The notes beneath the pieces are model-generated. The model searched no databases and was not told where the DNA came from. It saw nothing but the letters and a program-made list of their open reading frames with translations. Source: DASVDK01 sp036562265 [NCBI: Thermodesulfobacteriota bacterium] (GTDB lineage Bacteria; DASVDK01). Taken from it: 6,531 bases of DNA. The stretch lies in contig DATCKS010000556.1 in assembly GCA_036562265.1 (NCBI GenBank), positions 1 through 6,531 on the forward strand, in the 5' to 3' direction. Position 1 is the stretch's first letter, and every line of letters begins with the position of its first letter. Positions 44 through 3,721 of the stretch are shown piece after piece. The translations under genes and the position numbers were made by a program.

Positions 44-643
44 TCAGAAGGCGCGGCGCCCCTCGAGGGCGCGCGCGAGCGTCGCCTCGTCGGCGTACTC
101 CAGCTCGCCCCCCATGGGGACCCCGTGGGCGATGCGGCTCACCGTCACGCCGAGCGGCTTGAGGAGCTTCGACAGGTAGATGGCGGTGGCCTCCCCCTCG
201 ACGTTGGGGTTCGTGGCGAGGATGACCTCGCGCGCCTCGCCGTCGGCGAGACGCGCGAGCAGTTCCCGGATGCGCAGCGCCTCCGGCCCGACCCCCTCGA
301 TGGGGTTGAGGGCGCCGTGCAGCACGTGGTAGCGCCCCCGGTACTCGCGCGTCCGCTCGATGGCCAGGAGGTCGGGCGGCTCCTCGACGACGCAGATGAG
401 CGCCGGGTCGCGCTTCGGGTCCGCGCAGATGCGGCAGGGATCGACGTCGGTCACGTTGAAGCAGATGCCGCAGAGCCGGATCTCGTCCTTGACCCGCAAG
501 ATGGCGTGCGCCAGCGCGTCGGCGTCGCCGCGGGGGGCGCGCAGGATGTGGAAGGCGAGCCGCGAGGCGGTCTTCTCCCCCACCCCCGGCAGCTTGGCCA
601 GCTCGGCGATGAGGGCCGCGATGGGACCGGCGTAGGGGATCAG
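44..643 (-). CDS. recR: Recombination mediator protein RecR
   Basis: RecR works with RecO (and RecF) to load RecA on SSB-coated DNA at gaps and stalled forks. The 199 residues match the usual family length. Visible in order: helix-hairpin-helix LPGVGEKTA (18-26); a four-cysteine zinc finger (C58, C61, C70, C73); a Toprim domain starting at [14 protein letters not shown] (83-96) and continuing through [11 protein letters not shown] (144-154) with its acidic residues; and the C-terminal [13 protein letters not shown] segment (173-185). The start is unusual. No ATG, GTG or TTG lies in frame near the family's normal N-terminus. CTG at 643-641 overlaps the ybaB stop as CTGA, and GGAGGG lies 8 bases upstream, so I chose it. 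The frame stays open upstream to 1321, but that stretch runs through ybaB and the repeat array in another frame and is not RecR-like. Identity is certain; only the start is inferred. Confidence 0.96.
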
Positions 644-981
644 AAGGGGAACCCTCCACCGCCAGGCCCCCCGAGACCGGGGAGCCCGAGACTGCCGGTG
701 AGCTTCCCCATCTCGTCGGCCACGAGCTGACGGACCTTGCCCATCGCCTCGTTGACGGCGGCAACCACGAGGTCCTGGAGCATGACGGGGTCGTTCGGAT
801 CGATCACCTCCTTCTCGATCTTGAGCGACACCAGCTCCTGCTTGCCGTTGACCACGGCCGTGACCATGCCGCCGCCCGCCGTCGCCTCGACGGTCTTCCT
901 GCCCAGCTCCTCCTGCAGCTCCTGCATCTTCTGCTGCATCTTCTGGGCTTGCTTGAGGAGCTGACCGATGTTCTTGTTCAT
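640..981 (-). CDS. ybaB: YbaB/EbfC family nucleoid-associated protein
   Basis: This is a small DNA-binding protein of the YbaB/EbfC family, members of which form dimers that bind DNA and coat the nucleoid. The 113-residue product starts [20 protein letters not shown], a glutamine-rich, amphipathic coiled-coil helix typical of the family. The central core follows ([20 protein letters not shown], then the conserved D-P-x-D...[11 protein letters not shown] region), and the protein ends in a flexible Gly/Pro tail ([10 protein letters not shown]). I chose ATG 981 because GGAG (988-991) sits 6 bases upstream; an in-frame ATG at 993 would overlap that site, and longer versions run into the upstream repeat array. 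It lies between dnaX and recR, as in many bacteria, which supports a link to replication or recombination. Its stop overlaps the recR start by 4 bases. Confidence 0.95.
652..657 (-). promoter_or_regulatory. Ribosome binding site deciding the recR CTG start
   Basis: The minus strand reads GGAGGG here, followed by 8 bases and then CTG at 643. It lies inside the glycine-rich 3' end of ybaB. The spacing is near ideal for CTG, and no standard start codon lies within reach downstream without removing the conserved helix-hairpin-helix region. Confidence 0.6.
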
Positions 982-987
982 GGGAAT

Positions 988-991
988 CTCC
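988..991 (-). promoter_or_regulatory. ybaB ribosome binding site
   Basis: GGAG on the minus strand, 6 bases before ATG 981. It lies only two bases beyond the last base of the repeat array at 994, so folding of the first hairpins could affect access to it. Confidence 0.6.
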
Positions 992-993
992 AT

Positions 994-1386
994 CAACGGC
1001 TCGCGGCCGGCGTCCGCTCCGGCCCGGCGAAGCCGAGCCTCCGCTCGTCGGCGGCCCTGCGGGCCGCCAACCACCGGCGGCCGCTCGCCTCGCTCGGCGG
1101 CTTCCGCCGCCTCGATCAACGGCTCGCGGCCGGCTTCCGCTCCGGCCCGGCGAAGCCGGGCCTCCGCTCAACCGGGGCTTCGCCCCGGTCCCCACCACCG
1201 GTGGCCGCTCACCTCTGCGGCGCCTCCCGGCGCCGGCTTCAACGGCTCGCGGCCGGCGTCCGCTCCGCGCGGGGCAAGCCCGCGCTCCGCTCCTCGGCGC
1301 GCCTTGCGGCGCGCCAACCACCGGGGGCCGCTCGCCTCACGCGGCGGCCTGCGCCGCCGCTTCCCAACGGCTCGCGGCCGGAGTCC
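994..1386 (-). repeat. Tandem array of 123-bp three-hairpin units filling the dnaX-ybaB gap
   Basis: Units begin at 994, 1117, 1240 and 1365 (partial, 22 bp), each with CAACGGCTCGCGGCCGG. The first 27 bases differ at one position among the three full units. Each unit has three hairpins in fixed order on the plus strand. Hairpin A: 1021-1039, 1144-1162, 1267-1285. Hairpin B: 1050-1068, 1171-1189, 1296-1315. Hairpin C: 1096-1111, 1218-1235, 1341-1360. Stems are 6-8 bp and perfect except for one position in A of unit 1. B and C stems differ in sequence in every unit but still pair, while linkers stay nearly constant. On the minus strand the B and C loops include GGAA, GGGA and GCAA (GNRA type), and the unit 1 A exception becomes a G-U pair, so a structured RNA in the dnaX-ybaB transcript is the favoured reading. 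The array takes up nearly all of the 414-bp gap. I do not recognise the family. It could be a dispersed intergenic repeat like REP/BIME elements, or an mRNA processing or stability element. Confidence 0.88.
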
Positions 1387-1395
1387 TTAGTGACC

Positions 1396-3258
1396 CTAGC
1401 TCGCGAGCGGCTTCACGGCGAGGGTGTCGGGCGCGATCTCGAAGACCTCGGCCGCGACCTGCACCACCGGGTGCGCGAGCGCTTCGGCGAGGAGCGCGTC
1501 CCGCTCCCGCCTCGCCCTTGCCTCGGCGGTCTCGGCCACCGACGGCGCGAGCGGCGACATGCCGGCCGTGAGCCGCCCCACCCGTACCTCGTAGCGCCGG
1601 CCGGTGGCCTGCGCGAGGAGGTCGGTGAGGATCCCGGATCGCGCCGCGTCGGCCAGCGTGTCCTCGTGGAAGGGGTTGCCCTCGGGCATGCCGAGCGACA
1701 GCCGTCCGGGCGCAGCCTCGAGCAGCACGGCCTCTTCAAGGATCGCGCCGAGGGCCGGCTTCCGCGACGCCACGAACTGCACGGCGTCGACCCACCGCTC
1801 GGGCGTCAACTCGATGGGCCCGGCGTCGTCCGCGTGAGCCTCGCTCGGGCCGGCGGTCGCGCGACGTGCGTCGGCGCTCCCGACGGCACCCGGTCTCTCG
1901 GGCGTGTACCCGGCGCCCCTGCGGACGGCCCGCGCCTCGTCAGCGGACGCCCGCGCGCCGCTCCGCGGCGGCCCGCCCGTGGCCCCCGACCCTCCGCGCG
2001 CAGGCCCGGCCGTGCCGGGCCCGGCGCCGCCCGGCCCGCGCCTTCCGCCCTCCGGACCGCTCCCCGAACCGGCCGTCCCGTCGCCGCCGCCGAGGCGCGC
2101 GCCGAGACGGTCGAGGTCGGCCAGGATGTCGCCGAGCGAGCGCAGTTCCGCCACGCGCGCCATGCGGATCAGCGTGACCTCGAAGGCGAGCCGCGGGGCC
2201 GGCGCGCGCGACAGCTCCTCCTCGCCCCTGACGAGCAGGCCGACGAGCGCCTGCAGCTCGTCGACGCCGCGCCCCTCCGCGCGCCGGACGACCTCGGCGG
2301 CCTCGTCCGGCCCGAGTTCCGCCTCGAGCGCCTTCGCGCCGGCGACGCGGGCGAGGAGCAGGTGCCGGAAGTGCTCGAGGAGGTCTCGCGCGAGCTGCCG
2401 GAGGTCCGAGCCGCCCCGGTAGAGCGCGTCGAGCCGGATCAGGGCCGCCGCCGCGTCGCGCGCGAGGACCGCGTCGGCGAGGTCGCGGACCGCGGCGCGG
2501 TCCGAGATGCCGAGCACCTCGCGCACCGTTGCCTCGGTCACCTCGCCGCTGCCCGCGTAGGCGATGACCTGGTCGAGGAGGCTCTGCGCGTCGCGCATGC
2601 TCCCCTCCCCCTGGCGCGCGATGAGACGCAGGGCGCGGACGTCCGCCTTGACGCCGTCGGCCTCGGTGATCGTCCGGAGGCGCCCGGTCACCTCGTCGAG
2701 CGGGATGCGGCGGAAGTCGAATCGCTGGCAGCGCGACAGGATGGTGGCCGGGACCCTGTGGACCTCGGTCGTGGCGAAGACGAACTTCACGTGCGCCGGC
2801 GGCTCCTCGAGCGTCTTGAGGAGGGCGTTGAAGGCCGCCGTCGACAGCATGTGGACCTCGTCGATGATGTAGACCTTGAAGCGCGACGAGGCCGGCAGGT
2901 ACTTGACGTTCTCGCGAAGCTCGCGCACCTCGTCGACGCCGTTGTTCGACGCGCCGTCGATCTCGACGACGTCCACCGCGGTGCCGGCCGCGACCGCCTC
3001 GCACGAGGAGCAGGCCCCGCAGGGGGTCGGGTTCGGCCCGGGAGTGGCGGTGCAGTTGAGCGCCTTCGCCAGGATGCGCGCGGCCGACGTCTTGCCGACG
3101 CCGCGCGGACCGGTGAAGAGGAAGGCGTGGCCGAGACGGCCGGTGCGAATGGCGTTCTGCAGCGTCTGGGCGACGTGCCGCTGCCCGACGAGGTCGTCGA
3201 ACGTCGGCGGACGCCACTTGCGGGCGATGACCTGGTAGGCGGCGCCGGTGTCGGGCAT
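1396..3258 (-). CDS. dnaX: DNA polymerase III subunit gamma/tau
   Basis: This is the AAA+ motor of the clamp loader; in tau form it also ties polymerase cores and helicase together. The 620 residues show the family signature VIARKWRPPTFDDLVGQ near the N-terminus, Walker A GPRGVGKT (50-57), a zinc module (C69, C80, C83, C86), Walker B IIDE (131-134), sensor 1 ATTE (162-165), the arginine-finger SRC motif (175-177) and sensor 2 in GSMRDAQSLLDQ (219-230). The helical collar domain runs to about 375. A Gly/Pro/Ala/Arg-rich, probably disordered linker spans about 385-480, and a tau-like C-terminal domain (481-620) follows. ATG 3258 has GGAG 5 bases upstream (3264-3267). No A-rich slippery run was seen, so a programmed frameshift making a short gamma form is not supported. 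It lies 55 bp after ffs. Confidence 0.97.
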   Translation of the reverse strand: MPDTGAAYQVIARKWRPPTFDDLVGQRHVAQTLQNAIRTGRLGHAFLFTGPRGVGKTSAARILAKALNCTATPGPNPTPCGACSSCEAVAAGTAVDVVEIDGASNNGVDEVRELRENVKYLPASSRFKVYIIDEVHMLSTAAFNALLKTLEEPPAHVKFVFATTEVHRVPATILSRCQRFDFRRIPLDEVTGRLRTITEADGVKADVRALRLIARQGEGSMRDAQSLLDQVIAYAGSGEVTEATVREVLGISDRAAVRDLADAVLARDAAAALIRLDALYRGGSDLRQLARDLLEHFRHLLLARVAGAKALEAELGPDEAAEVVRRAEGRGVDELQALVGLLVRGEEELSRAPAPRLAFEVTLIRMARVAELRSLGDILADLDRLGARLGGGDGTAGSGSGPEGGRRGPGGAGPGTAGPARGGSGATGGPPRSGARASADEARAVRRGAGYTPERPGAVGSADARRATAGPSEAHADDAGPIELTPERWVDAVQFVASRKPALGAILEEAVLLEAAPGRLSLGMPEGNPFHEDTLADAARSGILTDLLAQATGRRYEVRVGRLTAGMSPLAPSVAETAEARARRERDALLAEALAHPVVQVAAEVFEIAPDTLAVKPLAS

Positions 3259-3270
3259 CGGTGCTCCGGG

Positions 3271-3304
3271 TCGGCCGGGGTCAGGGTCGCCCCGGCCCGG
3301 CCGA
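3271..3304 (-). other. Overlapping alternative hairpins between ffs and dnaX
   Basis: An 8-bp perfect stem forms between 3273-3280 and 3290-3297 (9-base loop). The same left arm can instead pair as 3271-3278 with 3297-3304. The two folds exclude each other. They lie between the 3' end of the SRP RNA and the dnaX ribosome binding site, 6 bases from the latter. No T tract is present, so this may be a processing or partial-termination structure, or a brake on dnaX translation, rather than a full terminator. Confidence 0.45.
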
Positions 3305-3313
3305 CGCCGTCAA

Positions 3314-3424
3314 GGGTGATCGCTAGGCACCCCTTCGGCACACGGAGGGAGCGGGTACCGTTGCTTCCTTCCGGACCTGGCGGGGTTCGCCGCGCTCCGT
3401 TGCGAAGGACCCAGCGACCACCGC
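3314..3424 (-). ncRNA. ffs: Signal recognition particle RNA, small bacterial (4.5S) type
   Basis: SRP RNA pairs with Ffh to target nascent membrane proteins to FtsY. The minus strand contains the apical Ffh-binding domain almost as in the consensus: CCAGGTCCGGAAGGAAGCA at 3362-3380, with the GGAA tetraloop and the asymmetric internal loop bases. The flanks pair as a long rod: 3413-3422 pairs with 3315-3324 over ten positions (one G-U), and further in, ACGGAG near 3395-3400 pairs with CTCCGT near 3342-3347. About 111 bases and no Alu domain match the short 4.5S class. The ends are set from the outermost pairing and may be off by a few bases. It follows the two serine tRNAs by 34 bp with no promoter seen between, so co-transcription and processing are likely. 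Confidence 0.93.
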
Positions 3425-3458
3425 TCACGGCGCCGGCCTGGCGGGGCTGCTGCGTGTC

Positions 3459-3552
3459 TGGCGGAGAGAGAGGGATTCGAACCCTCGAGGCCGGTTTGAG
3501 CCAGCCTACACGCTCTCCAGGCGTGCTCCTTCAACCACTCGGACATCTCTCC
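3459..3552 (-). tRNA. tRNA-Ser (anticodon GGA)
   Basis: Class II tRNA of 94 bases including an encoded CCA (3461-3459). The acceptor stem GGAGAGA/TCTCTCC is perfect, with G as discriminator base as expected for serine. Anticodon stem CACGC/GCGTG encloses loop CTGGAGA, giving anticodon GGA (reads UCC/UCU). A long variable arm and the T arm GAGGG-TTCGAAT-CCCTC are present. It is the second of two serine tRNAs read from the promoter at 3722-3750. Confidence 0.97.
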
Positions 3553-3565
3553 GGGGCATGCAGGC

Positions 3566-3594
3566 GACGCGGGGCGCCCCGGGCACCCCGCGTC
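3566..3594 (-). other. Hairpin in the spacer between the two serine tRNAs
   Basis: Arms 3566-3574 and 3586-3594 pair perfectly over 9 bp around an 11-base GC-rich loop. It lies midway between the tRNA-Ser(CGA) 3' end and the tRNA-Ser(GGA) 5' end. No T tract follows. It may be an RNase III-type or other processing structure in the polycistronic precursor. Confidence 0.4.
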
Positions 3595-3602
3595 CACGAA
3601 GA

Positions 3603-3695
<93 letters not shown>

Positions 3696-3721
3696 GCGCA
3701 ACCGGTGAAAACTGGTAGGGG

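Follow-up and report, generated by a model that had tools for sequence, protein, structure and literature searches.

What occupies the gap between dnaX and ybaB in this DNA, and how have its hairpin stems come to differ from one repeat unit to the next and yet remain paired? The window, i.e., the whole stretch of 6,531 nucleotides that was analysed, is bacterial DNA with a GC content of 74%, and carries on its minus strand tadA, two tRNA genes, an SRP RNA gene, dnaX, a tandem array, ybaB and recR. The dnaX-ebfC operon of Borrelia likewise adjoins tRNAs and the SRP RNA gene, according to the available part of its description (PMC9879097). The gap extends from position 982 to 1395 (414 bp), of which 397 bp are occupied by the array, and the ribosome-binding-site-like GGAG of ybaB is situated directly 3' of it. 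Among 91 loci of other, distant bacteria, the corresponding gap was measurable in 64, with the ybaB start codons picked by script, and has a median length of 24 bp; 59 of these gaps are 124 bp or shorter, and the remaining five are 169, 325, 395, 435 and 558 bp long. Set against this usually compact junction, the 414-bp gap makes an insertion or expansion likely here, while the four other junctions of more than 300 bp (4 of 64, one of them with three hairpins) mean that a long dnaX-ybaB gap is not unique to the window. The 558-bp gap is that of Pelagimonas phthalicica (locus L048), and contains three perfect hairpins, each 7 bp long or longer.

The gap is filled by a tandem array of 123–125-bp units followed by a partial one, as the earlier note on this DNA had described, with a period of 123 bp and 3.2 copies (Table 1). 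Copies of the 17-bp linker R start at positions 994, 1117, 1240 and 1365, with spacings of 123, 123 and 125 bp, so that four R linkers bound three units. Read along the operon strand, the order R-C-L-B-GAGCGGA-A-GGAGCGGAnG occurs three times and is closed by the fourth R, where L is a second linker and A, B and C are hairpins. The near-identity of the linkers, which had been proposed together with the layout, is borne out by the complete identity of R at its four places. In the 6.5-kb window neither R nor L has a second copy elsewhere, and R has no further match even when up to three mismatches are allowed (chance mean 0.39). In addition, L can pair with R through 6 bp, a tandem GA/AG and 3 bp, with one G-U pair in unit 2. 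In unit 1, hairpin A has eight pairs, one of them G-U, and hairpin C has six of its eight positions paired and a GGAA loop; loops of the GNRA type (GGAA, GGGA and GCAA) are found on the operon strand in several of the hairpins. A copy of GAGCGGA precedes and another follows every hairpin A, all in one orientation; the motif occurs seven times in the window, which is not clearly above chance (14 of 200 shuffles contain as many).

Table 1. Positions of the array, its constituent parts and the two flanking genes in the window
Feature	Position	Strand	Remark
dnaX	1396..3258	-	620 aa; gene upstream of array
ybaB/ebfC	640..981	-	113 aa; gene downstream of array
Whole tandem array	990..1386	- (operon sense)	three units and a partial fourth; period 123, 3.2 copies
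Unit 1	994..1116	-	nearest ybaB
Unit 2	1117..1239	-	
Unit 3	1240..1364	-	nearest dnaX
Partial fourth copy	1365..1386	-	linker R and a few bases
Linker R (17-mer)	994..1010, 1117..1133, 1240..1256, 1365..1381	-	four exact copies
Linker L	1070..1091, 1194..1215, 1317..1338	-	three copies, none other in the window
Hairpin A	1021..1039 (unit 1), 1144..1162 (unit 2), 1267..1285 (unit 3)	-	
Hairpin B, unit 1	1050..1068	-	8 bp
Hairpin B, unit 2	1171..1189	-	8 bp; shifted against the linkers
Hairpin B, unit 3	1296..1315	-	8 bp; GCAA loop
Hairpin C	1094..1113 (unit 1), 1217..1236 (unit 2), 1341..1360 (unit 3)	-	

Hairpins are in clear excess in the gap. Its 413 nt contain seven perfect stems of 7–8 bp, compared with a mean of 0.88 and a maximum of 4 in 500 dinucleotide shuffles; the 6118 nt of the window outside the array contain 13 perfect stems of 7 bp or more.

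The stem arms and the linkers have diverged to very different extents, in agreement with the contrast between conserved linkers and changing, paired stems drawn in the earlier note. In the three unit comparisons, the hairpin arms (48 nt in all for the three hairpins) have 14, 14 and 18 differing sites (29–38%), whereas the linkers, with 56 non-overlapping nucleotides in each unit, have 3, 1 and 3 (2–5%). The corresponding Fisher tests give p = 1e-3, 9e-5 and 5e-5, values that are flattering since the linkers were chosen as the conserved part. Hairpin B, for which the stem beginnings quoted earlier for units 1 to 3 are correct on the plus strand, forms all of its 24 pairs, i.e., all three units are fully paired. 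Its differences are without exception two-sided (4, 2 and 4 of 8 pairs per comparison, with zero one-sided changes), and a B arm forms 8 of 8 pairs with its own partner but 4–6 of 8 with the arm of another unit. Hairpin A differs between units 1 and 2 by one G-U change only, and unit 3 is set apart from both of the others by two-sided changes at three pairs, and has one closing pair broken. The core of hairpin C, compared in register, has one two-sided pair change (in unit 2) and is otherwise constant; 6, 7 and 8 of its 8 positions are paired in units 1, 2 and 3, respectively, and in the first two units the base is frayed. The claim that stems differ yet stay paired thus applies to B throughout and to A in unit 3 only, whereas C hardly varies, and to say that the C stems differ likewise was, apart from the single change in unit 2, an overstatement.

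The position of hairpin B bears on how these changes arose. Compared with units 1 and 3, unit 2 has it about 3 nt further along between the linkers, so that the changes are not column-wise compensation; the nucleotides just outside the B stem also differ in unit 2, and the flanks of hairpin C vary too. The shifted B and the variable flanks suggest whole-hairpin replacement or rewriting, which they would fit better than pairwise compensation, as far as three units can tell. More generally, three paralogous units are compatible with selection, with hairpin-block replacement or with hairpin-making copying, among which the shifted B would favour replacement.

The array looks non-coding. Its GC content by codon position lies between 0.72 and 0.86 in every frame (0.77/0.54/0.95 for dnaX), and stops are found in all three minus frames of the gap and twice in one plus frame; the two remaining plus frames are stop-free, which means little at this high GC content. 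A coding array was therefore rejected on account of the flat codon-position GC and the stops in all minus frames. An open frame of 919 codons on the plus strand (949–3708), antisense to dnaX and the array, is probably a by-product of the very high GC content. An intrinsic terminator, i.e., a GC stem followed by a T run, was likewise rejected, with 0 terminator-like sites on either strand between positions 800 and 1500, and the same interval contains no sigma-70-like promoter, the one promoter type covered. Among the families of Rfam 15, only the SRP RNA and the two tRNAs reached the gathering cut-off in the window, and the best match between 940 and 1430 scored 21.1 bits, the cut-off being 42. 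A CRISPR array was rejected because the sequences that separate the R copies are mutually homologous, not unrelated as spacers would be, and CRISPR-DR20 scored 16.9 bits against 42. Integron attC units carry paired core sites, RYYYAAC and GTTRRRY. An attC array was rejected as well: the minus strand of the 414 bp has a single GTTRRRY (1166–1172, in unit 2) and no RYYYAAC, and the remaining six GTT in the gap do not fit GTTRRRY on that strand.

Copies of the array were sought in genomes and in phage, plasmid and viral collections. The R-linker pattern, with up to three mismatches allowed, was present in 0 of 395 genomes from the phylum of genome G002. A search with the whole array in 117 genomes from the phylum of genome G179, in which up to five candidates per genome were scored, returned short matches at E ≤ 0.001 in 43 of them; ten of these matches were inspected as loci and are all short GC-rich look-alikes, and the others were judged from the listing. 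Phages gave no array match at E 0.01, and among plasmids 267 records matched weakly, at E values of up to 10, with coverage below 80% among the 20 matches listed. In viral contigs, the 17-mer of R matched 11 contigs, once each and in unrelated sequence, and the R-flank, two L patterns and hairpin A with its flanks had 0 matches each. The pattern GAGCGGA-gap-GGAGCGGA was found in at least 120 stretches of viral contigs, and the 88 matches scored, at 80 loci (L115–L194), include one 7-bp stem, that of L181.

Three of these viral-collection contigs are described here for their own sake. The L181 hairpin, at 13863–13896 of a contig with 69% GC, has GAGCGGA on both sides like hairpin A, and we judge it to be a chance occurrence. 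In L122, near 1258–1378, repeated GAGCGGA-AATTTTACACGTT-like motifs alternate with repeated promoter-like blocks, an alternation that we take to recall insertion-sequence ends. The contig end at L189 (13448–13693) is a tandem repeat of about 105 bp that is rich in GGAGCGGA-like purine stretches.

The reach of these searches can be gauged from DnaX. The scan of contigs for DnaX, from which 80 of at least 594 stretches were retained, has no close relative among those retained. Whole-genome DnaX searches covered 14 genomes by locus, 21 genomes (G001 and its relatives), 8 from the phylum of G003, 118 and 59 from one phylum that is Desulfobacterota-like, as it has genome G034 in common with the relatives of a Syntrophales genome, and 23 from the phylum of G007, which is Myxococcota-like by our inference; at 1e-125, a cut-off that shows strong matches only, 0 of 70 genomes from the phylum of G005 had a match. 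In the genomes reached, DnaX identity is at most 57% over about 360 residues or more, and 58–66% over shorter N-terminal pieces. At such low identity, the host lineage is not among the genomes reached, and trees leave the window unplaced; Binatota, Methylomirabilota or a similar group would be our guess at the host. The negative results for array copies come from outside the host's own lineage, and have no bearing on dispersal within the host genome. Comparison of the array with a set of retrieved loci gave a single match, 48 bp in L069 (E 3e-5), inside the dnaX match of that locus.

Bacterial palindromic repeats offer the main point of comparison. In the available part of PMC3733652, REP and BIME elements are, like the hairpins of the array, short, intergenic (most REP stems being 6–9 bp), clustered and sometimes tandem; repeats tagged by GTAG or CGTC form subfamilies with alternative complementary stem residues, and are arranged in clusters and tandem groups; and the roles proposed for REP/BIME-type repeats comprise mRNA stability, termination and supercoiling. 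Alternative complementary stem residues are also found in the array, clearly in B, in A of unit 3 and at one pair of C. However, an end tag, GTAG or CGTC within 5 nt in either orientation, accompanies one of the nine hairpins, and by that test the array is not a REP. It differs further in its 123-bp compound unit, in which three hairpins are combined with linkers that stay fixed. Since alternative complementary stems and clustering are already published for other repeats, paired stem change alone is not new, and the unusual part of the array is the three-hairpin unit with its fixed linkers. The suggestion that no named element has this layout stands for the exact layout, which is without an Rfam match at gathering score and is not described in the literature searched (titles and abstract openings, with few subscription papers covered), but it has to be qualified by the related palindromic repeats already in print (PMC3733652). 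Mitochondrial hairpin elements (double-hairpin elements, RHE) resemble the array in being repeated hairpins, some of them double or triple, and a few complementary substitutions distinguish two sponge types; within a type, the accessible text of PMC2800124 describes conserved stems and variable loops, the reverse of hairpin B.

We regard the array as a non-coding, BIME-like intergenic hairpin-repeat array, a reading that we find about evenly poised between right and wrong. The tandem layout, the near-identical linkers, the hairpin excess, the non-coding look and the short gaps elsewhere speak for it, as do the shift of B, the contrast between arms and linkers, and the published repeats with alternative complementary stems. 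Against it stand the searches made, in which no further copy was found, and the tags missing at eight of the nine hairpins; the term dispersed repeat is applied to the array by analogy. Most likely, it is an intergenic hairpin repeat that has not been catalogued, from a high-GC lineage beyond these searches, and belongs with the known bacterial hairpin repeats rather than with a new regulatory machine. A compound GC-rich hairpin repeat would have entered the normally compact dnaX-ybaB junction. Head-to-tail amplification would have followed, probably through unequal exchange at the 17-bp R linkers, which are identical. The sequence suggests that the hairpins would then have behaved as blocks, exchanged or rewritten between conserved linkers, which would leave stems that differ but remain paired. 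Because it lies between co-directional genes, the array is probably transcribed within the dnaX-ybaB-recR mRNA, where its likeliest effect, if any, would be that of an RNA-structure barrier separating the decay or expression of dnaX from that of ybaB-recR, as has been proposed for REP/BIME clusters.

Pairing could also have been kept by mutation itself or by chance. In hairpin-writing mutation, template switching at hairpins uses one arm to rewrite the other as the DNA is replicated, and stems would drift fast and yet stay paired without RNA selection. The mechanism is published, along with the finding that multiple compensatory changes are enriched in rRNA (PMC8794818, as far as its available text goes), and shares with the array the multi-base paired stem changes. 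Random G↔C swaps at the observed number rarely retain as many pairs (P = 0.004–0.016 for B and 0.002–0.05 for A and C, in comparisons that share units and are not independent), a rarity that is in keeping with template switching and runs counter to plain recent tandem duplication, in which random stem changes would have retained pairing by chance. Plain duplication would account for the low linker divergence and for hairpin C, which barely changes, but independent substitutions at the observed numbers seldom retain pairing, and B arms swapped between units lose 2–4 of 8 pairs. It is disfavoured for B, only weakly for A and C, and taken as a whole we consider it very improbable. Template switching, for its part, copies arm to arm, whereas both arms differ between units, which requires an earlier change each time; nothing in the sequence points to a source template, and ancestral states are not inferable from three units. 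In the part of PMC8794818 available, it is a mutational mechanism, inferred from the histories of rRNAs and microRNAs, rather than a family of repeats, and its authors term the evidence for the maintenance of short stems circumstantial. We give this mechanism a small but real chance of being the explanation. A further possibility, which seems to us rather unlikely, combines conserved linkers with exchangeable hairpin cassettes: block rewriting by hairpin-making copying would renew the pairing without RNA selection, and the linkers would be the recognised part. If this were true, paired stem changes need not imply a selected RNA structure, which would be a warning for covariation-based RNA discovery.

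Selection would act on the array if, in the operon mRNA, it were a structured cis-regulatory RNA, controlling the translation of ybaB-recR or the decay of the mRNA. The operon strand folds better than the plus strand and than shuffles (z = -4.8 versus -3.7, with 0 of 100 shuffles as good on each strand), R-L pairing is possible in all three units around the unpaired tandem GA/AG, several loops on this strand are of the GNRA type, and the array ends just before the GGAG of ybaB. However, there is no common fold. Units folded singly give z of -3.8, -3.1 and -1.7 on the operon strand (-2.1, -3.1 and -2.4 on the plus strand), and on the former hairpin B is predicted in all three and the R-L helix in one of three; the global folds of the units differ, which leaves no single fold for the unit. 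Moreover, the R-L pairing lacks covariation beyond one G-U, no Rfam family reaches its gathering score, and the sole array match among the loci compared is the 48 bp within dnaX of L069. We think a cis-regulatory RNA unlikely; were the array a kept RNA of this kind, the expression of a clamp-loader gene would be separated from that of a nucleoid-protein gene in an unusual way. A protein-binding DNA array, e.g., an autoregulatory site for YbaB/EbfC, would be consistent with the linkers being the conserved part, as binding sites would be, and the EbfC of Borrelia binds the 5' UTR of the dnaX-ebfC operon that encodes it, both as DNA and as RNA (PMC9879097, in the portion available). There, the sites are upstream of dnaX and not between the genes, and here the 413 bp contain a single instance of GTnAC, the Borrelia motif, at position 1390, outside the units. 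We hold a protein-binding array to be highly unlikely.

Two inverted repeats outside the gap are also of note. In the low-complexity linker of dnaX, positions 2003–2021 form a perfect 8-bp hairpin, the arms of which are exactly those of hairpin A in unit 2 around a different loop; it is either a chance occurrence or a relic of the array repeat. Between the SRP RNA gene and dnaX, a long GC-rich imperfect inverted repeat (3270–3305), spotted by eye, may mark where the SRP transcript ends or may belong to the dnaX leader.
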